Assembly (NCBI RefSeq): GCF_028736035.1
Contig: NZ_CP117866.1
Span: 8,101,001 to 8,165,000 of the forward strand
Direction: 5' to 3'
From: Streptomyces sp. T12
Lineage (GTDB): Bacteria > Actinomycetota > Actinomycetes > Streptomycetales > Streptomycetaceae
Length of the DNA: 64,000 nt
Part shown: in pieces, positions 855 through 19,933 of the stretch
Layout: each line of letters begins with the position of its first letter
Numbering within the stretch: position 1 is the stretch's first letter
Program-made: the position numbers and the translations under genes
The notes under the pieces: model-generated
Seen by the model: only the letters and a program-made list of their open reading frames with translations
Database searches by the model: none
What the model was told of the DNA's origin: nothing

Positions 855-896
855 GTAACGGTCTCCATCGGGTTGGCCTTCCAGCGTCGACTTCCG

Positions 897-2072: not shown

Positions 2073-2338
2073 CCCCGCCACCCCCCGGCACTCAGTTCAC
2101 TGACCACTTTCCAGAGGGCGCCCGCAGTGGCGAAGGTGCTCGCCTGTAACAACTCGTCCGGGATCTGGATGGCGTAATGGTCCTCGAGGGTCAGCAGCAG
2201 CTCCACGCTGCCCATGGAGTCCAAGCCCGCGGTTGTCAAGTTCTGGTCCGGCTGTAGGGATGCCTCCTCCGGGAACGAGCGTAGGAAGGGACGCAGCAGA
2301 CGCTCGAACGTCGAGTCCCAGGGCGCTGAATCCGTCAT
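2069..2338 (-). CDS. Acyl/peptidyl carrier protein
   Basis: An 89-residue stand-alone carrier protein. The 4'-phosphopantetheine attachment serine is S41 in the motif TTAGLDSMGSVELLLTLE, followed by the usual acidic helix and IQIPDELL. The start ATG at 2338 is preceded by AGGAGG and overlaps the stop of the upstream decarboxylase gene. It most likely carries the amino acid activated by the adjacent AMP-ligase while the decarboxylase and the flavoprotein act on it. This organisation resembles known beta-amino-acid starter systems of macrolactam polyketides, where a discrete carrier protein holds the substrate during decarboxylation. That parallel is inference from gene content. Confidence 0.92.
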   Translation of the reverse strand: MTDSAPWDSTFERLLRPFLRSFPEEASLQPDQNLTTAGLDSMGSVELLLTLEDHYAIQIPDELLQASTFATAGALWKVVSELSAGGWRG

Positions 2339-3582: not shown

Positions 3583-5051
3583 TCACCCCTCCGAAGCCGC
3601 TGTTTGTCGACCTTGCCATGCACCGTGTGCGGCAGTCGGTCGCAGACCCAGCAGTGGTCGGGAAGCTTCGCGGGTTCCAGACGTTCGCCAAGGGCTCGGA
3701 GGATGTCAGTGGGGGAGTCCGTAGTACTCACCCACAAGTGGACTAGGCCGTCGGCGCCAGGGGGGAGGACCGCCGCCTCGGACACCCCGGGTATGTCGAG
3801 TGCCGCGCCTTCCAGTTCGGCGGTGCTCGTCCGCACGCCGTGCCGCTTGAATATCTCGTCCCGCCTCCCCAGGAAGGTCAGTCTGCCCTCCGTATCGAGC
3901 ACGCCGACATCGCCAGTGAACAGGCACCGCTCGCCTGTGGCGGGATGCAGTCCGTAACGCCGGGCCGTCTCCTCGGGGGCACGCCAGTAACCGTCCATCA
4001 GGTGCGGTCCCCTTACGACGATCTGGCCGGGCTGTCCGGGCGGGAGTATGGCCCCAGTGTCGCTTACGACATCGACGTAGGTGCCGGGCAGGGCGGTACC
4101 GACGCTGCCCGGATGGCGCACATCGTCATCGGTCTCGGCGATCGTCACTCGCTTGCACTCTGTCATGCCGTACATAAGGACCAGAGACGAGCCTGAGAAC
4201 AACGCGCGGAGCTGTGCCGCGGTGGAGGGCGACAACTCGGCACCCGTGTTGGTCAGTAGGCGAACCGGTGGCCGGACCGAGCTTCGGCGCGCGAGTCTGA
4301 CCAGGACATGAGCCAGGGTGGGCACCAGCGGCAGCACGGTCGCGCGGTACTTGCTGGCGTACCCCAGAACCGCCGCCTCCGGCTGACGGCCCGTCACAGC
4401 TAGCTCCGCAGAGGCCAGCGCGCACAGGAATACCTGGTATAGGCCGTAGTCGAAGGAGAACGGAAGCCGGCAGTAGACGACATCGTCCTCCTGGTAGGCC
4501 AGCCGCTCCGCGACGACGGAGGCAGCGAAGGCGATCTGGGCGTGTCGGCAGACGACCGCCTTGGGAGAGGACGTGGACCCGGAGGTGTACATGAGCAGGG
4601 CGATGTCCGTTGCCCTCGCCCTGTCCGACTCGCGCTCGGGAAGCGGTTCCGGAAGGTGTCGTGAGAGTTGGTCGATGTCCGTCGCGGGGACGTCGGCACC
4701 AACGGATGCCTCGTCGGCGTCGCTGGCTTTGATTACCAGGGCTGGTTCACAGTCCGTCAGTATCGATTTGAGGTGGTACGGCCGCACGTCCGGGTTCACC
4801 GGGACGCAGATGGCTCCGTACCGGATGACCCCGTATAACAACCCGACCGCAGCTCGTGAGTTGGGAATGCGGACCAGGACGCGCTCTCCCCTGCGGATGC
4901 CCTGAGCGCTCAGCCAGGCGCAGACCGAGCGGCTGAAGCGGTCAAGCTGTCGGTAGGTCCAGGCCCCGGTCTCATCTCTGACCGCGGTCGCTGAGGGCCG
5001 TCTGCGGGCCGCTTGGGCCATGGTCTCGTGGATCAGAGGTGCCCTGCTCAT
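3567..5051 (-). CDS. AMP-dependent ligase (amino acid or acyl adenylation enzyme)
   Basis: A 494-residue ANL-superfamily enzyme with its core motifs in order: LMYTSGSTSSPKAVV (phosphate-binding loop), LMYGMTE, LFTGDVGVLDTEGR, RRDEIFKRHG, and the C-terminal catalytic lysine in HTVHGKVDKQRL. An in-frame ATG at 5138 would overlap the regulator gene by 77 nt. The ATG at 5051 (MSRAPLIHETMAQAARR) has AGGTGA upstream and fits normal family length, so I chose it. It probably activates an amino acid or short carboxylic acid and loads it on the carrier protein encoded two genes downstream. The rest of the set argues for amino-acid activation, but I did not attempt a specificity code. Confidence 0.9.
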   Translation of the reverse strand: MSRAPLIHETMAQAARRRPSATAVRDETGAWTYRQLDRFSRSVCAWLSAQGIRRGERVLVRIPNSRAAVGLLYGVIRYGAICVPVNPDVRPYHLKSILTDCEPALVIKASDADEASVGADVPATDIDQLSRHLPEPLPERESDRARATDIALLMYTSGSTSSPKAVVCRHAQIAFAASVVAERLAYQEDDVVYCRLPFSFDYGLYQVFLCALASAELAVTGRQPEAAVLGYASKYRATVLPLVPTLAHVLVRLARRSSVRPPVRLLTNTGAELSPSTAAQLRALFSGSSLVLMYGMTECKRVTIAETDDDVRHPGSVGTALPGTYVDVVSDTGAILPPGQPGQIVVRGPHLMDGYWRAPEETARRYGLHPATGERCLFTGDVGVLDTEGRLTFLGRRDEIFKRHGVRTSTAELEGAALDIPGVSEAAVLPPGADGLVHLWVSTTDSPTDILRALGERLEPAKLPDHCWVCDRLPHTVHGKVDKQRLRRGEWTIA

Positions 5052-5061
5052 ACGGCCGTGG

Positions 5062-5835
5062 TCACCTGTCCAACGACTGGGCTGATCGAGGAACGCTGGC
5101 GGAGAGAAGGCCCAATTCAAGTGCCGCCATAACGGCACCCGCGCGGTTGGCGGCTCCCAGCTTCAACAGCAGACTGCTGACCAGGCGCTTCACGCTGTGG
5201 TGCGAGATGCCGAGCTTCTGGGCGATCTGCCGGTTGCTCAGCCCGTCGGCCACATGCTGGAGTACGTCCCGCTCGCGCACCGTCACCGAGGCTGCGATGG
5301 CGGGCGGATTATCCCGGACCCGGTCCAACAGCTGTCTGCCGAGCCCCCGTGGCATGGGCATCTGGTCGGATGCCAGTTGGGACAGGGCCTGGTGCAGAGA
5401 CTCGGCGGTCAGATTCTCGTGGAGCAGGTAGCCGTCCGCTGGAGAATGAGTCACATCCAGCCACATATCGGACCGCACATCCAGGATCATCAGGGTGCGT
5501 GGTGGAGACAGGGCACTTTTGGTCATCTCTGCCGACAGCGGGACGCGGTTGGAACTCGAGACGACTAGCACATCGACTGGAGCGTGCGTCAGCCTGAGGT
5601 TCAGCTCATCCACGGACGTGCATGAATCACGCAGATTTACCGCTGGTAATGTCTGGAGCATCCCTTCCAGTCCCAGCCTCAGCAGCTCGTTCTCCACAAA
5701 GAGCACGGCGCGGAGTGGGCTGCTCGCACATGGTCGAGGCGTACTGGTGGATACTTTCCGCGCGTGTGATTCCCCTTCGAACGTCGCCCTCTCCCTCCAC
5801 TCACGCGCTGTTGGTGAAGTAAATCGCGCGAGCAA
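5062..5835 (-). CDS. LuxR-family regulator with atypical receiver-like N-domain
   Basis: The C-terminus is a clear LuxR/NarL helix-turn-helix: SVTVRERDVLQHVADGLSN, RQIAQKLGISHHSVKRLVSS. The N-terminal 120 residues look like a response-regulator receiver (RAVLFVENELLRLGLEGML) but the strand that should end in the phospho-acceptor Asp reads VDVLVVSSSNRVPL, and the usual acidic pair is reduced to EN, so classical phosphorylation is unlikely. The TTG at 5835 is the only in-frame start with enough upstream room and has a weak site, so the start is uncertain. A TTA leucine codon lies at 5647-5649 (minus strand), suggesting bldA-dependent translation. It is the first gene of the leftward arm and faces the rSAM operon, so it is the likely pathway activator. 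Confidence 0.85.
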   Translation of the reverse strand: MLARFTSPTAREWRERATFEGESHARKVSTSTPRPCASSPLRAVLFVENELLRLGLEGMLQTLPAVNLRDSCTSVDELNLRLTHAPVDVLVVSSSNRVPLSAEMTKSALSPPRTLMILDVRSDMWLDVTHSPADGYLLHENLTAESLHQALSQLASDQMPMPRGLGRQLLDRVRDNPPAIAASVTVRERDVLQHVADGLSNRQIAQKLGISHHSVKRLVSSLLLKLGAANRAGAVMAALELGLLSASVPRSAQSLDR

Positions 5836-6292: not shown

Positions 6293-7384
6293 ATGTCTCA
6301 AGAAGCGAGCCCGTTAGCGACTCGTGTCGCGACGAAGCGACGCATCGACCACATGCGCATTGCCGTCTCCTATTACTGCAATCTCCGCTGCCAGCACTGC
6401 TACGTCCCCGAGTTGAACCGCACCAAGTACCGCACGCTGCTGGAGTCGAGTCAGCTCACCCTGGAGGAGATCACCTCTTTCATCGACCGGCTCGTTGACG
6501 AGATGGAACTACAGAAGGTCACCATCACCGGCGGTGAGGCCCTCCTGCATCCCGTGTGGCCGCGCACCAAGGTCGTGCTGCGCCATGCACTCGACCGCGG
6601 TCTGACCGTGCAACTGAACACCAGCGGTTCGGGGCAGGTGCGCATGGCCCAGATCGCGGAAGTCTGCGGTGCCGATCTGGATCAACTCATCCTCCACCTG
6701 AGCCTCGACGGTGTCGACGAGGAGCGGGTGGACGCCTTCCGGGGCCGCAAAGGCGCGATGCGGGACGCGCTGCGCTCCCTGCGCGATGCGCGAGACATCG
6801 GTATGGCCGTCGAAGCCCGCTACACCATCACCGAGGAGAACCAGCAGGACACGGTTCCTACGTACCAACTGGTCAGCGAGTACAACGCACGATCATTCCT
6901 GGCCAAGCCCATGTTCGCGGCCGGAGTGGCACGGGACAACGAGGCACTGCTACTGCGGAAGAAGAACCAGGTCAGGGACGTGCAACTGGCACTGCTGGAC
7001 CGCAGCATCGGCAACACCACGCGGTTGGGCCTGCCCGAGCCGGTCTATGTGCTGGAGGAGGACTTCCCAGCGGGTCACTCGGCGTACGTCATCAAGTGCG
7101 CCTGCGGCGACGCGGCCGGCTACCTGTCCACGAACGGCGACATCTATCCGTGCAGTTACCTGGTGGGCGCGCCGGACGACCGCCAGCACGTCCTGGGCAA
7201 CATCCGCGACGCCGACTTCGTGGAGATGTGGAGCGATCCCCTCGCCTACAGCGAGTTCAGGTCCGCGGCGAAGGACCAGAACTGCACTGCCCAGAACATC
7301 GTCAGCGCGGGCATGGGCGTGGAGACCAGTGCCACGAAAGGCTGCTCGTGCGGCGGTTCCCAGTCCGAATGCGCTTGTGGCTGA
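6293..7384 (+). CDS. Radical SAM/SPASM-domain enzyme
   Basis: A 363-residue protein. The [4Fe-4S]-SAM motif is C29-x3-C33-x2-C36 (YYCNLRCQHCYVPE), followed by VTITGGEALLHPVW (GGE motif for SAM amino group) and a TIM-barrel core. The C-terminal third has a SPASM-like cysteine set (IKCACGD, IYPCSYL, QNCTAQN, KGCSCGGSQSECACG) for additional clusters. The family modifies peptides or small molecules by radical chemistry at unactivated carbons. No precursor peptide is visible next to it, so a small-molecule substrate made by the operon is more likely. Codon 8 is TTA (6314-6316), a rare codon placed early in the first gene of the operon. The very Cys-rich tail is unusual and worth noting. Confidence 0.93.
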   Translation: MSQEASPLATRVATKRRIDHMRIAVSYYCNLRCQHCYVPELNRTKYRTLLESSQLTLEEITSFIDRLVDEMELQKVTITGGEALLHPVWPRTKVVLRHALDRGLTVQLNTSGSGQVRMAQIAEVCGADLDQLILHLSLDGVDEERVDAFRGRKGAMRDALRSLRDARDIGMAVEARYTITEENQQDTVPTYQLVSEYNARSFLAKPMFAAGVARDNEALLLRKKNQVRDVQLALLDRSIGNTTRLGLPEPVYVLEEDFPAGHSAYVIKCACGDAAGYLSTNGDIYPCSYLVGAPDDRQHVLGNIRDADFVEMWSDPLAYSEFRSAAKDQNCTAQNIVSAGMGVETSATKGCSCGGSQSECACG

Positions 7385-7411
7385 GTGCAGGGGACCGGCT
7401 TCGGAGGCAGC

Positions 7412-8287
7412 ATGACATCGCTACGCCATCACCTTCACTCCGCCGATGAGCCCATCCGGTTCATCGGTGTCTACGACGGCTTGTCCGGACACCTCGCCGA
7501 GCGGTCGGGCGCGGTGGCCCTGTGGGCGAGTGGTCTTTGCATATCGGCGTCCAAGGCGCTCCCCGACGGAGAGGCCGTCACTTACGAGACGCTGCTCCGG
7601 CGCGCTGAAGACATACGGCGTGGAACCTGCCTCCCCATCCTGGTGGACGGCAACACCGGCTTCGGGGACGTCACCGTCGTCCGGCACGTGGTACGCCTGC
7701 TGGAGAGCCGGGGCGTCGACGGCATCTGTCTGGAGGACAAGTCATTCCCCCGCCGGAACAGCTTCGCCGACGGCCAGCCTTACCCCCTGGAAGCGCCCGA
7801 AGTCTTAGCGGAGAAGCTGGAGGCCGCGACGAGTGCGCGCCGCAACCGTGAGTTCCTGGTCGTGGCCCGCACGGAGGGGTTCATCGCGGGTGAGTCGATG
7901 GACGAGGTCCTGGGCCGGGCGCACGTCTATGAGGAGGCCGGGGCAGACGCGCTCGTCGTGCACTCCAAGTCCACGGACGGGCAGGAGGTGCTGGCCTTCG
8001 CCAAGGCGTGGGCGCGGCGTATTCCGCTCATCGTGATTCCGACGACCTATCCCACGCTGTCGTTCCGTGACGCGGGCGAACATGGTGTGGCCGGCGTGAT
8101 CTGCGCCAACCAGCTGATGCGGGTCTCCATGCATGCGATGCGGACATTCCTGACGGACCTCATCTCGGCGGACCGGATGACCGACTGCCCCACGGACATG
8201 GCCTCACTCGACGGGCTGCTGGCCTATGTGCAAGGGCTGGAAGCCACCCCGGGCAACGCGTTGTCGCTGCGTCTGGAGTCGTGTTGA
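7412..8287 (+). CDS. PEP-mutase family protein (PEP mutase/phosphonopyruvate hydrolase/isocitrate lyase superfamily)
   Basis: A 291-residue barrel enzyme. The ATG at 7412 with CGGAGGC upstream is preferred over the GTG at 7385. Relative to PEP mutases it keeps the loop WASGLCISAS, gating Asp D52, metal ligand D79 (VDGNTGFGD), E108-D109-K110 and N116-S117 in the diagnostic EDKSFPRRNS, R153 (VARTEGF) and H184 (VHSKS). Two positions differ: the second Asp of the usual DxDTG motif is N81, and the Lys before x-N-S is R114. PEP mutase forms the C-P bond of nearly all phosphonates by converting PEP to phosphonopyruvate. The equilibrium is unfavourable, so a following step must pull it. No decarboxylase gene follows; the next gene is a dehydrogenase. 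A TTA codon occurs at 7805-7807. A related lyase or hydrolase activity is the main alternative. Confidence 0.85.
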   Translation: MTSLRHHLHSADEPIRFIGVYDGLSGHLAERSGAVALWASGLCISASKALPDGEAVTYETLLRRAEDIRRGTCLPILVDGNTGFGDVTVVRHVVRLLESRGVDGICLEDKSFPRRNSFADGQPYPLEAPEVLAEKLEAATSARRNREFLVVARTEGFIAGESMDEVLGRAHVYEEAGADALVVHSKSTDGQEVLAFAKAWARRIPLIVIPTTYPTLSFRDAGEHGVAGVICANQLMRVSMHAMRTFLTDLISADRMTDCPTDMASLDGLLAYVQGLEATPGNALSLRLESC

Positions 8288-9342
8288 CAGCGGTGTGCGA
8301 CGACAAATGGTGGGAAGGAGTCGGCGAGCAGAACGTCCGCGCCAGCGCTGAGGAGGTGGAGGGGGCCGCCACCCGGGTCCTGGTCTCCCACCACGTCCCA
8401 GTGGACGACGCGGCCCTGACCGCACGGCACTTGGTCGACGGAAGTCTACGAGGTCACTTCGCTCATGGGGTGGAGCGGCTGCCGCAGATGATCGCGATGC
8501 TGCGCCGAGGTACGCTCAACCCCGCACCCAAGCGGACCATCGTACGGAAGTCGTCGGCCGTCGCCATCCTCAACGGCGACAACGGCCTCGGGCCGCCCGC
8601 CGCCGCAGAAGCCGTGGCCCAGGCCCGCAGCATGGCGGCCTCCTGCGGTGTCGGGGTGGTCGGACTGTGCGCGAGCGGACACCAGGGAACCCTGGGACCC
8701 TTGGCAGAGGGATGCGCCGGAGATGACTCCTTCGGACTGGTGGTGAGCGCCTCCGAACCCGGGGTGATCACCATGGCAGGGACCAAAGCGATCTTCGGCA
8801 CCAACCCCATCGCGTACGCCTGGCCGAGCGCCCAAGGTCCGGTGGTCGCGGATTTCTCCACCGCCGCGATGACACGCAGCGAGCTGCTGCGCAGAGCGGA
8901 GGCCGGGGAACCGCTGCCGTCCGGCACCGCGGTCGACACCGACGGCCTCCCCACGCGCGATGCGCGAGCCGCCCTCGACGGTGGCCTGTTGCCTCTGCGC
9001 GACGATCACAAGGGCGCCCTTCTCTCCCTCCTGGCCGCGATGCTCGCCGGGCCGGTCGTCGACGGCCCCGCTCCTCACCAGGTGGTCGGGACACGCAAGG
9101 CTGACGCGTTCCCCAACAAGGCCGACTTCTTCCTCACGATCAACCTGAGGGCCACCACGGCTCTGAGCGACTTCTACGTGCGAGGCGAGACCCTGAGGCA
9201 AGTCCTCGACTCCCCGGGCGCGGGGGATTTCACCCTGCCGGGAACCGGCGCCAAGGCGCGCATCGCAAAGGCGAGGCAGGAAGGGTTGTACCTGAGCAGC
9301 GGCACCGCTCGACTGCTCTGGGCAGAAGGGGAACGTCCATGA
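8284..9342 (+). CDS. Ldh2-family dehydrogenase (malate/L-lactate/sulfolactate type)
   Basis: About 352 residues of the Ldh2/MDG2 family of NAD(P)-dependent 2-hydroxyacid dehydrogenases. Visible family features are the N-terminal helical start (VLVSHHVPVDDAALTARHLV), DGSLRGHFAHGVERLP, LNGDNGLGPPAA, GVVGLCASGHQGTLGPLAE, TKAIFGTNPIAYAWP and VVADFSTAAMTRSEL. The TTG at 8284 overlaps the stop of the PEP-mutase gene as TTGA with GGAG five bases upstream; GTG at 8281 is an alternative. Family members reduce 2-oxo acids such as oxaloacetate, pyruvate or sulfopyruvate. Its place directly after pepM makes reduction of phosphonopyruvate to phosphonolactate the obvious proposal, which would also drive the mutase forward. 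That step is inference. Confidence 0.88.
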   Translation: MTAVCDDKWWEGVGEQNVRASAEEVEGAATRVLVSHHVPVDDAALTARHLVDGSLRGHFAHGVERLPQMIAMLRRGTLNPAPKRTIVRKSSAVAILNGDNGLGPPAAAEAVAQARSMAASCGVGVVGLCASGHQGTLGPLAEGCAGDDSFGLVVSASEPGVITMAGTKAIFGTNPIAYAWPSAQGPVVADFSTAAMTRSELLRRAEAGEPLPSGTAVDTDGLPTRDARAALDGGLLPLRDDHKGALLSLLAAMLAGPVVDGPAPHQVVGTRKADAFPNKADFFLTINLRATTALSDFYVRGETLRQVLDSPGAGDFTLPGTGAKARIAKARQEGLYLSSGTARLLWAEGERP

Positions 9343-10502
9343 GAGCCCCGGTCTCCGCCCTGGAGAGACGGACTGCCCGTCCGGAGAGTGATCTGCTGCT
9401 CGCCCTGACCTGGCTCCGGCTGCTCCCCGAACAGGTGGAAGCGTGCCGACAGCACCTGCGCGACCACCGGGAACGCTTCGACTGGGGCTTCTTCATCGAC
9501 CAGGCGGGCCGTCACAAGGTGTTGCCGCTGATCGGACATCACATAGCCCGTCACCGCCTGCACCACAGCGGGGACGGCAAGCCGCTGATCCCCCACTTCG
9601 ACACCTACGCCGCCGTGTACCAGGGAAACCGGCTACGCAACGAAGCACTCGGGGAGGAGTTCGGGCCGGTTCTTGACGACCTGACCGCCTCGGGCATCCC
9701 CTACGCAGTCCGCAAGGGGCCAGCTCTTGCGGAGGGACTCTACAAAGACCCGGGACTGCGCCGCATGAACGATCTGGACCTCCTGCTGAGACGCGACGAC
9801 GTCGACGGCGTGGGACAGGTACTCCGCGCTCATGGCTACGCTCAGGGACACCCCACGGCGACCGGTACCGTCGTCGAGCCGTTCGACCGCCGGACGCGCG
9901 CCTTCTGGCGCCTGCACGTGAACAACGAGCTCCCCTTCCACAAGCCGGGGAACCGCCTGGGCGTGGACGTCTTCGCCATCGATCTCTGCCTCGATGTGTT
10001 CCAGCACCGCCCTACGTCCGGCTCGGCGGTCGGTGACCTGCTCGCCCGGCGCCGGTCAGCGCGGCTCTTCGGAAGGCAGACCTTCACCTTGTCGCTGTCC
10101 GACCAGATGCTCGACCTCTGCGCGCACTTCCACAAGGAGGCGACGGCCCGTTACTACATCGAGGCCGGCGCCGACCTCCACCTGCTCAAATTCCTCGACA
10201 TCGCCCTGATGGGCGACCGGGTGAGCCGTGCTAGCGGCTGGGAGGACGTCGTGCGGAAGGCATACGAGTACCAGGCGTCGTCCGTCGTCTACTTCGCCCT
10301 GCAACACGTGGCGTGGCTGTATCCCACCGCCGTACCCAAGGACCGACTCGCCGAGCTTCGCCCGGACAGCACCGACCTGCTGGACGAGTACGGAGCGCTG
10401 GACGGCGACACTGAGCGATGGCAGCTTCCCTTCCTGGAACGGCTGTTCCGAACCGATCGGGGCGGGCTGGTACGCGGCACGTCGGTGATTCCCCATGTCT
10501 GA
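9339..10502 (+). CDS. NTP_transf_5 (uncharacterised nucleotidyltransferase-fold) protein
   Basis: A 387-residue protein of the nucleotidyltransferase-fold family often found in peptide and other natural-product clusters. The family signature is the segment YAVRKGPALAEGLYKDPG followed by RMNDLDLLLRRDDV, whose D-L-D pair corresponds to metal-binding acids of the fold. The remainder is mostly helical and not informative to me. The gene begins with ATGA overlap on the dehydrogenase gene and overlaps the next gene by 8 nt. The biochemical role of this family is poorly defined; a nucleotidylation (for example to a nucleotide-activated phosphonate) would fit the NUDIX hydrolase encoded further down, but that is speculative. 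Confidence 0.8.
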   Translation: MRAPVSALERRTARPESDLLLALTWLRLLPEQVEACRQHLRDHRERFDWGFFIDQAGRHKVLPLIGHHIARHRLHHSGDGKPLIPHFDTYAAVYQGNRLRNEALGEEFGPVLDDLTASGIPYAVRKGPALAEGLYKDPGLRRMNDLDLLLRRDDVDGVGQVLRAHGYAQGHPTATGTVVEPFDRRTRAFWRLHVNNELPFHKPGNRLGVDVFAIDLCLDVFQHRPTSGSAVGDLLARRRSARLFGRQTFTLSLSDQMLDLCAHFHKEATARYYIEAGADLHLLKFLDIALMGDRVSRASGWEDVVRKAYEYQASSVVYFALQHVAWLYPTAVPKDRLAELRPDSTDLLDEYGALDGDTERWQLPFLERLFRTDRGGLVRGTSVIPHV

Positions 10503-11346
10503 GAACAGGCTCAGGCACCCCGCCGCCGTCACCATGTTCCTGGGGACCGGGGCCTTCTCGTCGAAGACCCTGCTGTCCGTCGCGCTGCTGCGGTACCTGT
10601 CGAACCACGGCGTCGACGCCGTGCCGTACAAGGCCGTGACCGTGCTGCGCGATCGTGACATCAGACAGTCACCCGCCATGGACCTTGGCCTCCCGCACCA
10701 CATCCTCGCCGCGCGTGTCGGCGCCGACCCGCGGCAGTGCCCAGTCGTCGTACGCCAGACAGGCCCGTGCCAGGGCGACCTGCACCTGCGCGGCGAGAGG
10801 CTGGCGAACGTGGCTGTGCCGTGCAAGGACACAGTGGACCTGGCGTCGTTGCCTCCCGGGACGCGGGACAACATCGTCGCGGCGGCCCACTCCGCGGCGG
10901 AGCACCTAGTGAGCACTCATCGCCATGTCGTGGTCGAGGGCGCGGGCAGTGCGATCGTCCTCTCCGCGGACCAGGACTTGCCGAACATAGCCGTCGCTCG
11001 CCGACTGCGGCCCGCCATTGTTCTCGTGAGTGAGTTCTCCGGTGGAGGCGCCGCCGCCGCGTTGATAGGGACCTTCCAGTGCCTGCCGGCCGACGTCCAA
11101 ACCATGGTCCGTGGATACGTCGTGGCGAACACACATGAATCGAGCGCCCTCCACCGGACGATGACCCTCGTGACGCGTACGTCGGGCATACGGCCGCTCG
11201 GGATCATCCCGGCCAACGACGAGCTCGCGTACAGCGACCTGTACACCGACTCCGCCATCGACGGATGGGCCGCGCGTCTGCACGAGAACGTCGACATGGA
11301 GGCGTTGCTGGAATCCTCCCTAGCGGGGGCCCCGATTGCGGAGTGA
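10495..11346 (+). CDS. CobQ/BioD-like P-loop protein with degenerate Walker A
   Basis: A 283-residue protein that resembles the N-terminal nucleotide-binding domain of cobyric acid synthase and dethiobiotin synthetase: MFLGTGAFSSKTLLSVALL at the start, then VDAVPYKAVTVLRDR, VVEGAGSAIVL and LVSEFSGGGAAAALIGTF. In active relatives the loop reads GTxSxxGKS/T. Here it is GTGAFSSKT (residues 17-25), so the glycine before the lysine is serine. The class-I glutaminase domain of CobQ is absent. The gene is therefore neither a cobalamin gene by context (no other cob genes) nor a normal amidase. It may be an ATP-dependent amide or ring-forming ligase on a pathway intermediate, or a non-hydrolysing relative. 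Confidence 0.75.
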   Translation: MSENRLRHPAAVTMFLGTGAFSSKTLLSVALLRYLSNHGVDAVPYKAVTVLRDRDIRQSPAMDLGLPHHILAARVGADPRQCPVVVRQTGPCQGDLHLRGERLANVAVPCKDTVDLASLPPGTRDNIVAAAHSAAEHLVSTHRHVVVEGAGSAIVLSADQDLPNIAVARRLRPAIVLVSEFSGGGAAAALIGTFQCLPADVQTMVRGYVVANTHESSALHRTMTLVTRTSGIRPLGIIPANDELAYSDLYTDSAIDGWAARLHENVDMEALLESSLAGAPIAE

Positions 11347-11350
11347 ACTC

Positions 11351-12595
11351 TTGACCGATCTTGTCATCGATTGTGACTGGAACGGCCCAGCCGACGCTTC
11401 CCTGGTGGGCGAGAAGGCAGCAGAACTGCTGAGTCTCTACAACCTGTCATCGCACGGCGGCTTCCGCGTCCCCCAGTTCTGCGTCCTACCCGCTTCGGTG
11501 CTGGGGGAGTTCTACCGCCAAGTGGACTGGGACGTGCCACTTCAGTACGAAATGCTGCCCGGAACGCGGAGCGTGCCCGAGGGCGTGCTCCGGAAGCTGC
11601 TCCCGTTCCCGTCCTTCGCCGACGCGATCATCAGCGAATGCACGCGCCGACTCGAGCGACCGGCCATGCTGCGCACCAGTCTCGTACAGTCGACGAGGGA
11701 CAACGGAACCGGGTACGGGATCAACTCGACGGTACTTCTCGACCGGGACCAGGCCATGGCCATCCACCGCACGCGTGTACTGCCGGACCTGCTGGCGGGG
11801 CTCTACAAGGCGTATACGACCTGGGACAGCTGGGACCGGCACCCATGGACCGCGCGGGAGGCGGGCATTGTTTTCATGGACGCCGTACCCTTCACCTGCC
11901 TAGGCGCCGCCTATGTGGAGGTCGGCCGGGTGACCGTCGAAGTGGACGCAAAAAGGCCGCCCGAACGGCACCAACTAGTCCTCGACCGGCGAGCGCCGGA
12001 GGACGACCACGGTGTGCTCGGCCGCAGGCGTCGCGACCGGCTGCTGAGAGCCTGTCACGACATCTGGGAGACCAGAGACACGGGGAGTGGTTTGGTCGAG
12101 GTGGAGTTCGGCTTCGGTGCTGAGGACGAGCTGTTCATCGTCCAAACCCGGCAGCTACCTGGTGACAGGGCGGGGGCCTTCCATTCCATTGGTGAGGTCA
12201 CCGGTCAGGTATGCGATCTGCGGAATCTGCCCCGGGAACCGGGGGCGGTCCATGAGGCCCTGTCCCACGTGGGACCCCACTCCATTCTGGTGTTGCGGAG
12301 AAACGACCCGCACTGGTTCGACGCCTTCGCCCTGGCATGGATCTCACGGCTCTACGCTCTCCCCAGCCCGCCAGCCGCTGTGGTACTGGAAGACCGTGGA
12401 ATCGTTGGACGGGACCCGGGCTTCCGCAATCACCTGGCCCACGCCCTCATGACGCAGCGGTCAGCCCCATTCGTAGCACAGGTGACACCCGGCCAATGGC
12501 CCAGCGGAGCGAAGGAAGTAACCATGACTTCAGATGGATCACTGCTCGACATCCGTGCCCGATCAACACAGATGATGGGACCTTCCACCTGGTGA
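11351..12595 (+). CDS. Stand-alone PPDK/PEP-synthase-type ATP-binding domain protein
   Basis: A protein of about 414 residues resembling only the N-terminal ATP-grasp part of pyruvate phosphate dikinase and PEP synthase. Seen features are LVGEKAAELLSLYNLSSHGG then RVPQFCVLPASV (usual GGKGxNL...VPPGF region), MLRTSLVQSTRDNGTGYGIN (usual VRSS region) and the end motif VEVEFGFGAEDELFIVQTRQ (usual IEWxxDxxxLxxLQxR). The swivelling phosphohistidine domain and the PEP/pyruvate barrel are missing. TTG at 11351 with GGAGTGA 5-10 bases upstream is a better start than TTG at 11336. Known relatives phosphorylate small molecules (for example rifampin phosphotransferase, which does keep the His domain). 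Here a kinase or ligase role on a pathway intermediate is possible, but no function is established. Confidence 0.68.
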   Translation: MTDLVIDCDWNGPADASLVGEKAAELLSLYNLSSHGGFRVPQFCVLPASVLGEFYRQVDWDVPLQYEMLPGTRSVPEGVLRKLLPFPSFADAIISECTRRLERPAMLRTSLVQSTRDNGTGYGINSTVLLDRDQAMAIHRTRVLPDLLAGLYKAYTTWDSWDRHPWTAREAGIVFMDAVPFTCLGAAYVEVGRVTVEVDAKRPPERHQLVLDRRAPEDDHGVLGRRRRDRLLRACHDIWETRDTGSGLVEVEFGFGAEDELFIVQTRQLPGDRAGAFHSIGEVTGQVCDLRNLPREPGAVHEALSHVGPHSILVLRRNDPHWFDAFALAWISRLYALPSPPAAVVLEDRGIVGRDPGFRNHLAHALMTQRSAPFVAQVTPGQWPSGAKEVTMTSDGSLLDIRARSTQMMGPSTW

Positions 12596-13026
12596 AACTG
12601 CGTGATAAGGCGTTGTGTTGCCTTCGAGTCGCTGACTCCTTCCTCTTCACTGTCCGGTACGACGGACAGCCACCCGCGACCACGTTTCTCATCCCGCCTG
12701 GAGGAGGGATCGAGGATGGGGAGACACCCAGGGAGGCGGCGACCCGGGAGGCGCATGAGGAACTCGGCTGCGAAATCACGGCCTGGGACGACCTGGGGAT
12801 CACGGTGGACGAGTTCACCTTCCGGGGCGAGGAGTACCGCGAAACCGTGCACATCTTCGCCGCCGATCTTCCCTCCGGGGCGAGGATCGCCGCTTGCGCC
12901 CACGAGTCCAATGGCGAGACCCACCCGCTCCAGTGGCTCGCGGTGAGTGACCTCCAGGACGGTGGTCTGTTGATCTATCCGCCGGGCCTACCGGAGGTGC
13001 TCATCCGATATGCCGAGTCGAAATGA
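12592..13026 (+). CDS. NUDIX hydrolase
   Basis: A 144-residue protein with a complete NUDIX box: GGGIEDGETPREAATREA followed by HEELG, matching G-x5-E-x7-R-E-x-x-E-E-x-G. The reading frame extends far upstream, but the GTG at 12592 overlaps the stop of the preceding gene as GTGA and gives the usual NUDIX length, so I take it as the start. NUDIX enzymes hydrolyse nucleoside diphosphates linked to another group. In at least one phosphonate pathway (FR-900098) a NUDIX enzyme removes CMP from a nucleotide-protected intermediate. A similar deprotection here would pair with the NTP_transf_5 protein, which is inference. Confidence 0.92.
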   Translation: MKLRDKALCCLRVADSFLFTVRYDGQPPATTFLIPPGGGIEDGETPREAATREAHEELGCEITAWDDLGITVDEFTFRGEEYRETVHIFAADLPSGARIAACAHESNGETHPLQWLAVSDLQDGGLLIYPPGLPEVLIRYAESK

Positions 13027-13032
13027 GTGCGC

Positions 13033-13818
13033 ATGGAGCTCACCGACGCCGTGTTCCTCACCTCCGCCGCCTATGCGGACCCCCGGCGGTTCGCTGCGCG
13101 CCAGGGGCTCTACCGTTGGCAGAGCCCCCACCACGACCTGCCCGCCCTCGTCATCGAAGCAATCTCTGACCTCACCGGACTGGTCGTCGACGTGGGCTGC
13201 GGCAACGGGACGTATGTGCATCGGCTCCGGTCCGCCCGGCCCGACCTGGACGTCCTCGGTGTCGATCTGTCCCTGGGGATGCTCAAGAGCATCGCTCCGC
13301 CGGTGGTGGTGGCTGACGGCCGCCGCCTGCCGCTGCCGCACGCGTCCGCCGACGCCACGCTGGCCCTGCACATGCTGTACCACCTGCCCGACATCGGTGC
13401 TGGGATCGCTGAGTTGAAGAGAATTCTCCGCCCCGGTGGCAAGGCGGTCATCGCGACCAACTCCGCCACCGACAAAAGCGAACTCCAAGCGCTCTGGCAG
13501 CAGGCGCACCAGGACGCCGACGTGCCCCTCACCAGCCGCAGCCTCTCGTTCAGCGCACGGTTCACTCTGGAGGACGCACAGGAAACGCTGCCACGGTACT
13601 TCTCGCACACCGAACTTCTGCGCCTGGACTCCACCATCACCGTTCCCAGCTCCCGACCCGTGATGGAGTACTTCCACTCCTATCTCCCGCTGCCAGGGCA
13701 TGACGAGAGGACGACGCGACGCGTCATCGCCGCGCTGACCGACCGCGTGCGGGCCGAGGTCGCGCGCGCCGGCAGCTTCCGCATCACCTGCCGAGGAGGG
13801 CTGTTCGTCTGCTCCTAG
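13033..13818 (+). CDS. Class I SAM-dependent methyltransferase
   Basis: A 261-residue Rossmann-fold methyltransferase. Motif I is VVDVGCGNGTYVHRL, the acidic residue binding the SAM ribose is in VLGVDLSLGML, motif II region is VVADGRRLPLP, and the post-motif segment is LALHMLYHLPD then LKRILRPGGKAVIATN. A GTG at 13027 abuts the NUDIX stop codon; the ATG at 13033 is the likelier start, and neither has a strong ribosome site, so coupling to the upstream gene is expected. It is a typical O-, N- or C-methylation tailoring enzyme; its substrate cannot be read from the sequence. Confidence 0.9.
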   Translation: MELTDAVFLTSAAYADPRRFAARQGLYRWQSPHHDLPALVIEAISDLTGLVVDVGCGNGTYVHRLRSARPDLDVLGVDLSLGMLKSIAPPVVVADGRRLPLPHASADATLALHMLYHLPDIGAGIAELKRILRPGGKAVIATNSATDKSELQALWQQAHQDADVPLTSRSLSFSARFTLEDAQETLPRYFSHTELLRLDSTITVPSSRPVMEYFHSYLPLPGHDERTTRRVIAALTDRVRAEVARAGSFRITCRGGLFVCS

Positions 13819-13861
13819 CGTTCCGGAGACCGCTGCACGTTGACAGTGAGGAGGGCGCTCC

Positions 13862-14635
13862 ATGCACTATCTGTTGCTGGCCGAGCACCAAGCCCGGGTC
13901 CGTTGGGTCGATGTGCCTGGTGTGCGTCCCGCTCGCGTGTACGTGCACGGCCTGGGCTCCGCGGCGGTGGACTTCTTCTCCCTCGCGGCTCATCCTCTCC
14001 TCGCTGGCCATCGAACCATTCTGGTCGATCTCCTCGGTTTCGGTTTCAGCGACCGACCGGAAAGCTTCGGATACACGGTCGACGACCACGCGGAAGTAGT
14101 CGAGCGAGTACTGGACGAACTGCACCTTTCCGATTGCGAGGTGGTAGCTCACAGCATGGGGGGCGCCGTCACGGTGGCACTGGCTCGGAAGCGGCCTGAC
14201 CTGGTGTCCCGCCTGGTCCTCGCCGAGCCCTGCCTCACAGGTGGCGGCAAACTGAGTGGACGGATCGCCACACTCTCGGAACACGACTACGTGCGCCGCG
14301 GGCACGCCATGATCGCGGCGCGACTCGGAAACAGCCGTAATGTCACGGATCTTGAGGCGTTACCTGCCTTCCAGGCAGCCTCACCCCTCGCCGTTCACCG
14401 GTCCGCCGTTGGACTCGTGCGCGGCACGCGTGAGGACCTGCGCCATGTTCTCCAGGAACTTCCCCTGCCGCGTGCCTACCTCGTCGGCGAACACAGCCTG
14501 CCCGATCTAGCGGCTGAGACACTACGTGCTTCGGGAGTGGCCGTTCTCATCGTGCGGGGAGCCGGTCACATGATGATGCATGACGCTCCGCAGACGTTCG
14601 CCGAGTCCGTGCATCGGGCGATCAGCAGCGCCTGA
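13862..14635 (+). CDS. Alpha/beta-hydrolase fold protein
   Basis: A 257-residue alpha/beta hydrolase. The nucleophile elbow is VVAHSMGGAVTVAL (serine in A-H-S-M-G-G), the oxyanion region is VYVHGLGSAAVDFF, and the catalytic histidine is in IVRGAGHMMMHD near the C-terminus. A short cap region lies between residues about 130 and 190. The ATG at 13862 has GAGGAGG upstream. It may release or trim a pathway intermediate (ester, thioester or carbamate). A TTA codon occurs at 14360-14362, consistent with developmental control of the operon. Confidence 0.9.
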   Translation: MHYLLLAEHQARVRWVDVPGVRPARVYVHGLGSAAVDFFSLAAHPLLAGHRTILVDLLGFGFSDRPESFGYTVDDHAEVVERVLDELHLSDCEVVAHSMGGAVTVALARKRPDLVSRLVLAEPCLTGGGKLSGRIATLSEHDYVRRGHAMIAARLGNSRNVTDLEALPAFQAASPLAVHRSAVGLVRGTREDLRHVLQELPLPRAYLVGEHSLPDLAAETLRASGVAVLIVRGAGHMMMHDAPQTFAESVHRAISSA

Positions 14636-14686
14636 CACGCGTGCACACGTACTTCCACTCCCGGACAGGAAAGGTGGCCGCCTGAC

Positions 14687-16141
14687 ATGCCGCGAAAGAT
14701 CGTCCTCGTAGGGCTGGGCTTCCACGCACGGCACCATTACCTACATCTGCTGGCAGACCTCGTACGTCGGCAGGAGGTGCGACTGGTCGCCGTGGTGGAA
14801 CTCGAAAAACGACGAGCACACACCGCACAAGTTCTGAGCGACGCCGGCATCCCCGCCGCCCACTTCGTGGGTGTACGTGCGACCGATGCGCTCGCGCAAG
14901 CCGAAGCACTGGCGAACCTGAGCAGAGTCAAGGCCCAGCACGGCTGCGACGGACTGATCATCTCCACCGACCCCCGCAACCACCTCCCCTATCTGGAATG
15001 GGGCGCGGTGGAAGGGGTCGATGTCCTGGTGGACAAACCACTGACCGCCACCGACATGGACTTCTCCCCAGAGTCCGCCCGAGCGCTGACCAACGCATTC
15101 GAATCAGTCAGGGACCTCTTCGCGAAATCTGCTGCCACCGCCACTGTCATGGTGACCCGTCGCTCCCACGATGGATACCTCATCGCACGCCGCGTCCTGC
15201 ATGAGGTGGCCGCGGAATTCGGCATACCCATCACCTTCATCAACGCCTACCACGCCAACGGCTATTGGAACTTCCCCGATGAGTTCCGCAGTCGTGAGAA
15301 CCACCCGTACAAGTACGGTTTCGGCGCCCTTCTGCACGGGGGCTACCACGTGGTCGACCTGGCTGCCTGGCTGCTGTCCGTCAACGAGAACGCTCTCCGC
15401 GACGACTGGGCGGACAGCGTAGAGGTACTCACCCAGCACACCACGCCCGACGACTTCCTGGAGCAGGTACCCGAAGCCGTGTACAGCAGGTTAGGTCTGG
15501 GGCAATCCATGCAGGCGCCCTTCAGCTCTGCCGGTCGTCGTTTCGCGCGGTCGTGCGGTGAGACGGATGTGAACATCGCTTTCTCGGCCAGACGGAACGA
15601 CCGCGTGATCACCATGGGCAATATCCAGGTGATGGAGACGGCGCTTAGCACCCGAGCCTGGCGAGACCTCCCGGAGGACACGTACAAGAGCAACGGCCGC
15701 CACTCTCAGGAACGGCTCACCATTCACATGGGACACCTCCTGACTCTGCACACCGAGGACTACCGTTCCTGGTCCGGCGACGCGGATCCGGATGGCCTCG
15801 CGCCTGCACGATTCGTCATCCGGGTACTGCGCAACAGCAAGCTGATCGGTGGGGAGCCCTACTCCGAACACGTGCTGACGCGTCCGCCGAACCCGGCCGG
15901 CCACCGCGACGAATCCCTCACCGAACGCAGTCGCCGCCAGGCCTTCCACCAGTGGATAGCCGGAACTGGTCACGCCAGCGCGCTGGACACTCACGGACTG
16001 TCCATACGGCTGCTGACAGCTGCGCACGAGAGCATGTTCCGCCGCCGTCGCGGCCTCGCGCCCATGGCCACGTTTCCGATGCGGACACCTACGCTGACCC
16101 AGGAACCGGAATCAGTGCGGTGGGGCAACGCCAATGTCTGA
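14687..16141 (+). CDS. Gfo/Idh/MocA-family oxidoreductase
   Basis: A 484-residue protein, longer than the typical 330-400. It starts with a nucleotide-binding Rossmann segment (KIVLVGLGFHARHHYL), followed by LIISTDPRNHLPYLEWG and the conserved lysine motif VDVLVDKPLTATD that in this family carries the catalytic Lys-Pro. The C-terminal domain includes GFGALLHGGYHVVDLAAWLL, with the histidines expected near the substrate. The extra length is in the C-terminal 120 residues, which I do not recognise. The family oxidises or reduces sugars, inositols or cyclic imines with NAD(P). A ribosome site GGAAAGGTGG precedes the ATG. A TTA codon lies at 15491-15493. The substrate is unknown. Confidence 0.85.
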   Translation: MPRKIVLVGLGFHARHHYLHLLADLVRRQEVRLVAVVELEKRRAHTAQVLSDAGIPAAHFVGVRATDALAQAEALANLSRVKAQHGCDGLIISTDPRNHLPYLEWGAVEGVDVLVDKPLTATDMDFSPESARALTNAFESVRDLFAKSAATATVMVTRRSHDGYLIARRVLHEVAAEFGIPITFINAYHANGYWNFPDEFRSRENHPYKYGFGALLHGGYHVVDLAAWLLSVNENALRDDWADSVEVLTQHTTPDDFLEQVPEAVYSRLGLGQSMQAPFSSAGRRFARSCGETDVNIAFSARRNDRVITMGNIQVMETALSTRAWRDLPEDTYKSNGRHSQERLTIHMGHLLTLHTEDYRSWSGDADPDGLAPARFVIRVLRNSKLIGGEPYSEHVLTRPPNPAGHRDESLTERSRRQAFHQWIAGTGHASALDTHGLSIRLLTAAHESMFRRRRGLAPMATFPMRTPTLTQEPESVRWGNANV

Positions 16142-17087
16142 ACTGCTCGTGATCGGCGCCCCGAGCGACACAGCTCGCGAAGTGGTGAGAGAAGCCCTGT
16201 GGCCCCATCAGATGACGGTGTCCTTCTGGCCCGACCCGGCTTCCGTGCCCCGAGACATCAGGCGCCTGGCGACAGGCGTGATCATCGACGGCCCAGGAGC
16301 TGACGGAGATTTCGTCCACAGCCTCGCAAGGCTGAAGGCATGGGTACGGGTCACCCGAACGCCGTGCAGCTACGCGTCGGAGTACGCCGCCCTTCAGCTA
16401 AGGGGCGTGGCGGTCCGAGGGGGCACGCCGGGCCGCTCTATCGCTGAGACGGCGGAGTTCTCCGTTCTGATGATGCTCATGCTGGTCCGCAGAGCGATCG
16501 ACGTGGAACAGGCACTGCGAGGTGGAGACGTTAAGGCCATCGAATCTCTCAACCACGCGACCGGCACGCTGGGCGACGAGACCGTTGGCCTCGTTGGTCT
16601 CGGCCGCGTCGGCAAGGCGGTGACCAACCTCCTGACCCCCTACGGTCCGCTGATCCTCCACGCCGCTAGACGCTCCCCGCAGGACTGTTGCGCTGGAGCG
16701 GCCGGGCGCTACGGCGACCACGTGCCGTTGAGTGAACTGCTGGCACGATCCACGATTGTCTCCCTCCACCTGAGAGACCGGGAAGGCACCTGGCGCTTGG
16801 GTGAGGAACAACTGGCCGCGATGAGACGCGACGCGATTCTCATTAACACGGCACAGGGCCGTCTGGTCGACGAGACGGCCCTGTGCGCCCATCTGGAGCG
16901 TGGGCGACTTCGGGCGGCCGGACTCGATGTCTTCGAGCGTGAGCCACTGCCCGCCGACTCACCGCTGCGCTCGGCGCCCAACCTGCTGCTCACGCCCCAC
17001 ATAGCAGGCAAGACACGCGGAGCGGCACAACGGTTGTGGAAGGAGGCGTGCGAGGCCGTGATCGGCGTTCTGTACTCGGCCACGTAG
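16134..17087 (+). CDS. D-2-hydroxyacid dehydrogenase family protein with altered active site
   Basis: A 317-residue protein of the D-isomer-specific 2-hydroxyacid dehydrogenase family. The NAD fold is clear (VGLVGLGRVGKAVTNLL) and the acid-base pair is kept as E270 (FEREPLP) and H289 (LTPHIAGKT). The catalytic arginine that binds the substrate carboxylate, normally in the motif NTARG, is glutamine here: Q241 in LINTAQGRLVDE. This suggests a different substrate head group or a changed reaction. It overlaps the preceding oxidoreductase by 8 nt and is the last gene of the operon. With the Ldh2 homologue it makes two potential 2-oxoacid reductases in one cluster. Confidence 0.86.
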   Translation: MSELLVIGAPSDTAREVVREALWPHQMTVSFWPDPASVPRDIRRLATGVIIDGPGADGDFVHSLARLKAWVRVTRTPCSYASEYAALQLRGVAVRGGTPGRSIAETAEFSVLMMLMLVRRAIDVEQALRGGDVKAIESLNHATGTLGDETVGLVGLGRVGKAVTNLLTPYGPLILHAARRSPQDCCAGAAGRYGDHVPLSELLARSTIVSLHLRDREGTWRLGEEQLAAMRRDAILINTAQGRLVDETALCAHLERGRLRAAGLDVFEREPLPADSPLRSAPNLLLTPHIAGKTRGAAQRLWKEACEAVIGVLYSAT

Positions 17088-18466: not shown

Positions 18467-18814
18467 GTTCTACCGCTTTCGGACGTCCAGGCCGAGCCGC
18501 AGGCGAGTGCCCGGTGGTTGGAAGGGCGCGCGCCCCTGTGATTCCGGGGGGGGGTGAGTTGCTTCGCCGACGGCAGACACATTGAGGCCGACACGGACTG
18601 GAATACAGCGGCGAAGGAAGTCAACCTAGAGCGGTCCTCGGGGAGAGCCGTGATATGGCGCCCTCTCTGCCCATCCATGTGGGTGCTTCTGGTGAAGGGG
18701 TGGGCGGAATATATACGACGATCGCCGGTTAGCGAAACCGGCGCTTCTCTGGACTATTGAATCACCACGGGGACGTCGCCGCGTCCCGCCGCCTTGTGTG
18801 AGGAGCCAAGTACC

Positions 18815-19438
18815 TTGTCGCATACTGCAATAGATGAACATTCCCTGCTCTCCGTGGAGCACATCCGTTCCCTGCTGGGATGGGTTCAGCAATCCCCCGA
18901 GGCGTCGGGGGCGGTGTTTCCTTTCCTCGCCTCGATGGCAGGTGCGGCCCTGCTCCCCAGCGAGGCAGCCGCGCTTCGAGTGGACGACGCCACGCTCCCG
19001 GAAGGGGAGTTCGGTGAGTTGCTCGTCCGCGCCGACGAAGAGCGGAAGGTCCCTGTCACTCCGGAACTCGCCGGTGTGCTTCAGGAGTGGATCGACGAGG
19101 CCAGCCTGAAGCCCGGCGATTTGCTGTTCCCCGGTGAGCACGGCGGGGAGTTGTCGTCGTCGCTGTACCGGCGGGTGTGGAAGCAGGCCCGTGAGGCGGT
19201 GCTGACCCCGGACGAGGTGACAGCAGGTTTGGGGGAACGCGTCACCAGTCTGCGGGATTCCTGCCTGGATGCATGGCTCAAGGCGGGTGTTCCTGCGTGG
19301 GGCGTCGCCGAGTGGGCCGGCGTGAGCGCGAGCTGGCTTGCGCTGCGCTACCCGCATCGGTTCCGCCTGGAGGACGTCGACCTCGACTGGGGTCACCTGG
19401 CCGAGGTCATGGCGCTTCCGGACTCGCTCAAGCGGTGA
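18815..19438 (+). CDS. Degenerate tyrosine-recombinase-like protein
   Basis: A protein of about 207 residues resembling the catalytic half of Streptomyces tyrosine recombinases: LLPSEAAALRVDDATLPEG, KVPVTPELAGVLQEWI, LLFPGEHGGELSSSLYRRVW and LRYPHRF in register. Catalytic positions are mostly gone: the first Arg (LRxGEA) is Leu, the H-x-x-R box (DLRHA) reads SLRDSC so His is lost, and only the second Arg and the C-terminal Tyr region remain. It also lacks the N-terminal arm-binding domain. TTG at 18815 is preceded by GAGGAG and is chosen over TTG at 18794. It is probably inactive as a recombinase; a DNA-binding or regulatory remnant role cannot be excluded. Confidence 0.65.
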   Translation: MSHTAIDEHSLLSVEHIRSLLGWVQQSPEASGAVFPFLASMAGAALLPSEAAALRVDDATLPEGEFGELLVRADEERKVPVTPELAGVLQEWIDEASLKPGDLLFPGEHGGELSSSLYRRVWKQAREAVLTPDEVTAGLGERVTSLRDSCLDAWLKAGVPAWGVAEWAGVSASWLALRYPHRFRLEDVDLDWGHLAEVMALPDSLKR

Positions 19439-19446
19439 TTTCGCGC

Positions 19447-19477
19447 CCCGCGCTCTGGTCGACGATCAGAGCGCGGG
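19447..19477. terminator. Terminator hairpin after the degenerate recombinase gene
   Basis: CCCGCGCTCTG (19447-19457) pairs with CAGAGCGCGGG (19467-19477), an 11-bp perfect stem with a 9-nt loop starting 8 bases after the stop codon. Position and strength fit a factor-independent terminator of the actinobacterial type without U-tract. Confidence 0.6.
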
Positions 19478-19660
19478 CTTCCGCCATCGACTCTTGAACT
19501 TCAGCGGTCTGCACATCAAGGACGTTGTCACGTGATGATTCTCCGTGATGTGGTCCCACTGCCCTGACGGGGCTGGTTGACCTTCGTCCTGGCCCGCCTG
19601 ATGTCCCGGCTGAACCGATTTGCCGATTGACCTTCTCACCCTCATCTCAAGGACTCACTC

Positions 19661-19867
19661 ATGCCTGCCCGTTTGCTGTCCATTCCTGCCGTCGCCGCCG
19701 CTTTGGACGTGGACCGGCGCACCGTCTATCGGTTCATCGCCGCCGGGGAACTGCCGGTGGTCGACCTGCGCACCGGAGCGGGCCGCTCTCGTGTCCGTGT
19801 CCCCGCTGCTGGGCTGGAGGAGTTCATCACCAGCAGGTCGGTCGCTGCCCCGCAGACCCGCCGCTGA
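19661..19867 (+). CDS. Excisionase-type helix-turn-helix protein
   Basis: A 68-residue protein with a MerR-like/HTH_17 winged helix: LLSIPAVAAALDVDRRTVYR followed by FIAAGELPVVDL and a basic GRSRVRVPAAGLEEFI. These small proteins are directionality factors (Xis) of integrative elements and lie just before the integrase, as here (67 bp). The ATG at 19661 has AAGGA upstream. No other conjugation or replication gene of such an element is seen nearby, so it is probably a remnant of a larger element. Confidence 0.82.
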   Translation: MPARLLSIPAVAAALDVDRRTVYRFIAAGELPVVDLRTGAGRSRVRVPAAGLEEFITSRSVAAPQTRR

Positions 19868-19933
19868 CCCCTCGCCGTCAGCTCAGCCCTCCACGTTCCC
19901 GAACAAAGGAGTAGTACCGCGTACCTGCGCAAG

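Follow-up and report, generated by a model that had tools for sequence, protein, structure and literature searches.

An eleven-gene operon in Streptomyces sp. T12 carries a homologue of phosphoenolpyruvate (PEP) mutase that belongs to a small, well-supported and apparently new clade of these enzymes, marked by a coupled exchange of two near-fixed residues, Asp to Asn and Lys to Arg. On some contigs this clade, here called the N/R clade, is accompanied by a matching subfamily of Ldh2-type dehydrogenase. The operon occupies positions 6293-17087 on the + strand of the window, the 64,000-nucleotide stretch of the 11.46 Mb genome G000 that was analysed (contig C1, 8101001-8165000). By a modest balance of probability, we read it as the core of a phosphonate cluster. 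The N/R-clade enzyme would act as a PEP mutase, converting PEP to phosphonopyruvate. The Ldh2-type enzyme would then reduce phosphonopyruvate to phosphonolactate with NAD(P)H, exerting the pull on the uphill first step that a decarboxylase usually provides, and activation and tailoring would follow. The interconversion of PEP and phosphonopyruvate and the formation of the carbon-phosphorus bond by the operon, like every other chemical step discussed below, are predicted from sequence. The cluster probably makes an undescribed phosphonate by a little-explored route, and its gene set suggests a phosphonate scaffold absent from the other clusters that were compared.

The coupled exchange is the most interesting point, and one that the earlier note proposing a phosphonate-type operon in this DNA had missed. 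Searches for phosphonate natural products routinely use the PEP mutase gene as their marker (PMC12723261). A clade that has the marker motif and yet departs from the norm at two near-fixed positions either widens what counts as a PEP mutase or means that the motif can mark something else.

A coupled exchange in a PEP-mutase clade

The homologue bears the EDK-x5-NS motif that had been claimed for it, in the form EDKSFPRRNS. In alignment with the Mytilus PEP mutase (1m1b), its residues 81 and 114 take the positions of Asp87 and of Lys120, the latter presumably a gating-loop residue. Canonical PEP mutases (Mytilus 1m1b/1pym and Streptomyces platensis 5unc) have Asp and Lys at these positions, whereas the N/R clade has Asn and Arg together. 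When the best 120 of 933 PEP-mutase homologues were listed and aligned, 14 of them, the query included, formed a core clade at least 49% identical to the query over the alignment, and just beyond it the score falls, among the matches listed, from 292 to 247 bits. Its named members are Streptomyces sp. NPDC001401, CA-111067 and NPDC006335. Asn81 and Arg114 occur throughout the core clade, and P0019 and P0107 share them, giving 16 N/R sequences in total; the 104 other listed homologues are Asp/Lys in 103 cases and Glu/Lys in one, and neither Asn without Arg nor Arg without Asn is found anywhere in the 120-row alignment. Among genome loci, 60 of 60 motif-bearing rows outside the window's own gene are Asp/Lys, many of them being the same gene twice (the residue table also held three own-gene rows and five showing no motif). 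A tree of 84 rows, drawn from 36 genome loci and 48 of the 120 proteins, places all 16 N/R sequences in a single group (support 99/96), P0107 sitting on a long branch, and the residue label changes once, against a mean of 14.8 after shuffling. P0016, which retains the Lys but has Glu in place of Asp87, is placed in the group neighbouring the N/R clade.

That the protein is a PEP-mutase-type enzyme, as proposed before, is supported by its sequence, in which PEP mutases are the nearer relatives and the hydrolase and lyases the more distant ones. The best of five families listed is TIGR02320 (PEP_mutase; 237.2 bits, short of the equivalog cut-off of 319.55), above the hydrolase profile TIGR02321 at 169 bits. 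In the phosphonopyruvate hydrolase 2dua the asparagine of the NS pair is replaced (PKDTS), whereas the present protein reads PRRNS and keeps N116-S117. The predicted structure (predicted local distance difference test, pLDDT, 89.8) gives a fold ranking that agrees, nearer PEP mutases than hydrolase/lyases, with at most 34% identity to solved PEP mutases in structural alignments. Three of the four metal-site residues Asp58, Asp85, Asp87 and Glu114 are kept; the Asp87 position holds Asn, so the homologue is not filed as a canonical PEP mutase. According to the review PMC7916636, the metal of PEP mutase is held by Asp85 and five waters, with Asp58, Asp87 and Glu114 holding three waters; this was the only paper bearing on PEP mutase among the matches listed in a literature search on Asp87, Lys120 and the gating loop.

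The exchange may also mean that the N/R clade no longer turns PEP into phosphonopyruvate, and instead handles another enolpyruvyl phosphate or works as a C-C lyase or hydrolase whose product Ldh2 reduces. Such a shift would fit the division of Asn/Arg (16/16) from Asp/Lys (103/104), the single origin of the group, the place of Asp87 in the metal shell, the distance from solved PEP mutases and the missed equivalog cut-off. However, Asn and Arg are conservative changes, and the remaining catalytic and gating-loop residues checked, including N116, S117 and R153, are kept in 14/14 core members; we consider loss of the mutase reaction unlikely. We hold it possible, if only tentatively, that the clade is a functionally distinct enzyme of the PEP-mutase fold, its metal shell and gating loop retuned for a dedicated Ldh2 or for another substrate, and that a phosphonate or phosphonate-like pathway is built on it, using radical SAM, CobQ-like and pyruvate phosphate dikinase (PPDK)-like chemistry undescribed for known products.

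The Ldh2-type partner and a decarboxylase-like pair

Under our preferred reading, a mutase whose product is drawn off by reduction, the partner would be the Ldh2-type dehydrogenase. A 2-hydroxyacid dehydrogenase does accompany pepM in the operon: the Ldh2 gene lies directly behind it, and a D-2-hydroxyacid dehydrogenase gene is found further along. The suggestion that Ldh2 is the mutase's partner has gained support, both from its nearest relatives and from the co-occurrence of the two on some further contigs. Among solved structures the enzyme's best relative is the L-sulfolactate dehydrogenase 2x06, and its best curated family is the L-sulfolactate dehydrogenases of NF040650, yet it reaches only 192 bits there against a cut-off of 500. 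Thirteen Ldh2 relatives, the query included, were found at E 1e-40. Scoring in the Ldh2 and PPDK-like searches was confined to 7,995 and 7,992 candidates, those with the most shared words, so absences in them are weak. Four of the 14 core-clade members, the present one included, are paired with an Ldh2 of the matching subfamily, three of these pairings being inferred from contigs of equal size: P0002/P0122 (289,912), P0010/P0127 (4,157) and P0011/P0124 (398,365). For instance, Streptomyces sp. NPDC001401 has relatives of the PEP-mutase (77% identical), Ldh2 (71%) and PPDK-like (59%) proteins, all on a contig of size 289,912. Relatives of the PPDK-like and Ldh2 proteins also co-occur at contig size 24,372, from which no PEP mutase is listed.

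The earlier note had held that the mutase has no partner decarboxylase. This stands for the operon, where none of the eleven proteins is a thiamine diphosphate (TPP) decarboxylase of the phosphonopyruvate type, but it overlooked a split TPP pair 17 kb away (33911-35049, - strand) that resembles sulfopyruvate and phosphonopyruvate decarboxylases. The pair could decarboxylate phosphonopyruvate in trans, leaving Ldh2 to act later on another keto acid. It matches the phosphonopyruvate decarboxylase profile TIGR03297 in two pieces, and sulfopyruvate decarboxylase subunits more strongly; actinomycete phosphonate clusters can have the phosphonopyruvate decarboxylase (Ppd) as two genes (PMC12723261). 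When 20 neighbourhoods of other Streptomyces PEP mutases were compared, an Ldh2 relative lay near pepM in four (L041, L042, L044 and L052), and all four have a TPP enzyme beside pepM; pepM with Ldh2 is therefore not unique, and of the five only the present operon is without a TPP enzyme. On the other hand, all scores of the pair are below curated cut-offs (134 against 221.5, 111 against 147.95, and 108 and 66 against 312.5), and 13 of 14 control genomes likewise give TIGR03297 matches below the cut-off. To the right of the pair lie a CoA-transferase, an acyl-CoA dehydrogenase and, by eye, a LysR-like regulator. Pair and right flank (33.9-39.2 kb) share 84-88% DNA identity, over the stretches compared, with genome G033. 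In a genus draw of 392 genomes, 84 (own genome counted) gave a PEP-mutase match at E 1e-20, and G033 is absent from these. Two recombinase-type open reading frames (ORFs) separate the pair from the operon, and its third-position GC is 0.92-0.94 against 0.76-0.86 in eight picked operon genes, a rough contrast because the script missed three operon genes and took some wrong frames. A decarboxylase pathway in trans thus seems improbable to us. We read the pair as a separate catabolic module, conceivably with a helper role.

The proposal of a mutase pulled by Ldh2 has several points to answer. Besides falling short of the TIGR02320 cut-off, the homologue is outscored by two other PF13714 proteins of the same genome, L001 and L002 (236 and 219 against 177 bits), neither of which shows the motif. 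Because Asp87 holds a metal-bound water, its replacement by Asn could alter activity. Pairing by equal contig size is indirect; P0004, on a contig of 8.78 Mb, has no Ldh2 on a contig of that size among the 13 listed, which counts against strict pairing, and the other nine unmatched core members sit on contigs of at most 5,050 bases, too short to test it. The TPP decarboxylase-like pair in the same window likewise weighs against the proposal.

Comparison with known phosphonate systems

Reduction of phosphonopyruvate to phosphonolactate is not in itself a new way of pulling the mutase reaction. Section 2 of a 2026 preprint (PMC12871164) counts reduction by a 2-hydroxyacid dehydrogenase among the known pulls, beside decarboxylation, transamination and condensation, and cites the valinophos paper for it. 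The proposed route is therefore a variation on known logic; what appears new is the clade of the mutase, the reductase that goes with it and, as far as seen, the set of genes. In the valinophos pathway, as proposed for the present operon, a 2-hydroxyacid dehydrogenase draws off the product of PEP mutase (PMC12871164), and the valinophos cluster has an ATP-grasp ligase, VlpF (PMC12723261). Possible differences are the Ldh2 type of the present reductase adjacent to pepM and the radical SAM, NTP_transf_5, CobQ-like and PPDK-like genes of the operon. The passages seen of the review PMC13302981 give nothing on phosphonolactate, and among the literature matches listed no publication was recognised by title as describing the operon's gene set.

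The earlier view that the gene combination matches no familiar pathway found support: in the 20 other neighbourhoods at most 3 of the 11 operon proteins were matched, the maximum being at L048. The four loci with Ldh2 close to pepM differ in having Asp/Lys PEP mutases, a TPP enzyme and an Ldh2 only 28-31% identical to the present one; L041 and L044, the two scanned for these neighbours, also have glycerate kinase and TauD. L048 resembles the present operon in having a D-2-hydroxyacid dehydrogenase, an NTP_transf_5 protein (47% identical) and an AMP ligase near its PEP mutase, which is of the Asp/Lys type, but has no Ldh2, radical SAM or PPDK-like match within 19.9 kb. This locus (genome G259) also has a PALP enzyme and is possibly another phosphonolactate-type cluster. 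The nearest PEP mutase in the 392-genome genus draw, L037 (45% identical), has homocitrate-synthase-like, aconitase and isocitrate-dehydrogenase-type genes as neighbours and is a condensation-type cluster, unlike the present one. The earlier interpretation as a whole is partly supported: it keeps its mutase-like enzyme, its Ldh2 partner and its gene set, not repeated in the neighbourhoods compared, but its reduction logic is a known one.

Further members of the clade were sought in five overlapping genome draws, and no second N/R-clade locus turned up in any of them. Besides the own genome, nothing above 45% identity was found in the 392-genome genus table. The own genome included, matches were found in 5 of 296 genomes of a relatives draw (at 1e-62), 33 of 394 of a family draw with the clade alignment as query (1e-75), 1 of 363 of a second genus draw (1e-68) and 2 of 394 of a class draw (1e-85). 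A contig scan with the single protein as query gave two 28% relatives, and the 433 plasmid records matched were all below 60% identity.

Operon, larger cluster and surroundings

All eleven ORFs of the operon are present as earlier described, tightly packed and free of internal stops (Table 1). Five adjacent pairs overlap by 4-11 bases, with a sixth overlap should 12592 be the NUDIX start, and the remaining gaps are about 50 bases or less; such overlaps and short gaps suggest a single translationally coupled operon. No promoter-like site was found (1.1 expected by chance), and terminator-like sites are as frequent as chance predicts (5 observed, 5.0 expected). The domain matches in Pfam and NCBIfam agree with the labels of the earlier note.

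Table 1 Features of the operon and of the divergent arm to its left.
Feature	Positions	Strand	Remarks
Acyl-CoA-dehydrogenase-like protein, likely cluster member	897-2081	-	PF02771, PF00441
Pyridoxal phosphate (PLP)-dependent decarboxylase, diaminopimelate-decarboxylase type, likely cluster member	2335-3582	-	PF02784, PF00278; TIGR03099 230 bits, below cut-off
AMP-forming ligase, likely cluster member	3567-5138	-	PF00501 266 bits; TIGR03098 277 bits, below cut-off
LuxR-type regulator, likely cluster member, divergent from operon	5062-5835	-	PF00196
Radical SAM/SPASM protein, operon gene 1	6293-7384	+	PF04055 60 bits, PF13186 33 bits
PEP-mutase homologue, N/R clade	7412-8287	+	PF13714 176-177 bits; GTG start at 7385 possible
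Codons of residues 79-87, DGNTGFGDV	7646-7672	+	Asn81 at Mytilus Asp87 position (alignment to 1m1b); invariant in the 14 core-clade members
Codons of motif EDKSFPRRNS, residues 108-117	7733-7762	+	Arg114 at Mytilus Lys120 position
Ldh2-type dehydrogenase, proposed phosphonopyruvate reductase	8281-9342	+	PF02615 (Ldh_2) 241 bits; possible starts 8281, 8284, 8293
NTP_transf_5 nucleotidyltransferase	9339-10502	+	PF14907 133 bits
CobQ-like P-loop protein, 283 amino acids	10495-11346	+	PF13500 (AAA_26) 40.5 bits, sole Pfam match
PPDK-like / ATP-grasp-like protein	11336-12595	+	No Pfam match
NUDIX hydrolase	12592-13026	+	PF00293 55 bits; start uncertain: GTG 12592 or ATG 12496, ORF opens 12337
SAM-dependent methyltransferase	13027-13818	+	PF08241 64 bits
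Alpha/beta hydrolase	13862-14635	+	PF00561 81 bits
Gfo/Idh/MocA-type oxidoreductase (GFO_IDH_MocA)	14687-16141	+	PF01408 31 bits
D-2-hydroxyacid dehydrogenase, NAD-binding domain (2-Hacid_dh_C)	16134-17087	+	PF02826 144 bits

After the proposed reduction, the nucleotidyltransferase, CobQ-like and PPDK-like proteins would activate the phosphonate or its carboxylate, and the radical SAM, methyltransferase, Gfo/Idh, D-2-hydroxyacid dehydrogenase, hydrolase and NUDIX proteins would tailor the product. Nucleotidyl activation is common in phosphonate biosynthesis via other families (PF12804 and PF01467; PMC6697681, a text without mention of PF14907). Relatives of the NTP_transf_5 protein occur near other Streptomyces PEP mutases (47% at L048 and 43% at L049); two further PF14907 proteins score above cut-off elsewhere in the genome, so the family is not phosphonate-specific. 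For the radical SAM protein 62 NCBIfam families matched, and in the 25 listed its score stays below the family's cut-off; among small ORFs before its gene no convincing precursor peptide was seen. The D-2-hydroxyacid dehydrogenase matches glyoxylate reductase and GhrB profiles below cut-off.

The PPDK-like label is the least secure of those in the earlier note. Hints come from the sole profile signal, PPDK_N at E 0.071 in one of the only two relatives found, and from Foldseek, which ranks pyruvate phosphate dikinase first and ATP-grasp ligases next, but Pfam gives no match and the model (pLDDT 46.7) is too poor for a firm fold. The CobQ-like protein is of CobQ type by NCBIfam (TIGR00313, 84 bits over its N-terminal part, cut-off 309.9), with no glutaminase domain matched in Pfam. 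By sequence, no solved relative was found for the PPDK-like protein (profile, E at most 1) or the CobQ-like protein (E at most 0.001). That the operon is a decaying or silent remnant without a product is very improbable: its rarity, with no second clade member in the genome draws, and the CobQ-like P-loop GTGAFSSKT, with Ser where the usual P-loop has Gly, would fit decay, but the eleven frames are open and closely spaced, and one strain, Streptomyces sp. NPDC001401, has relatives of the PEP-mutase, Ldh2 and PPDK-like proteins alike.

The cluster is larger than previously recognised and reaches left of the window. Its left part comprises window positions 1-5835, where the decarboxylase of the divergent arm is of the amino-acid type by family, and L077:9392-20000 (contig C1, 8090392-8101000). 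A carbamoyltransferase on the - strand spans the window's left edge, its C-terminal part read in L077; further left, also in L077, lie an AMP-binding protein, two ABC transporters, a condensation-domain protein, a leucine-rich-repeat protein and a sugar-nucleotide epimerase-type protein. The extent is about 28 kb, from L077:9392 to window position 17087, the left boundary being a guess. Third-position GC, by the same rough script, is 0.69-0.82 for picked ORFs of the left part, whereas many genes of the window's right half reach about 0.9 or higher. No tRNA gene marking an integration site lies in the window; the two recombinase-type ORFs right of the operon (18794-21022, + strand) are of the tyrosine-recombinase type, the first just under the Pfam cut-off, and horizontal acquisition of the cluster is plausible.

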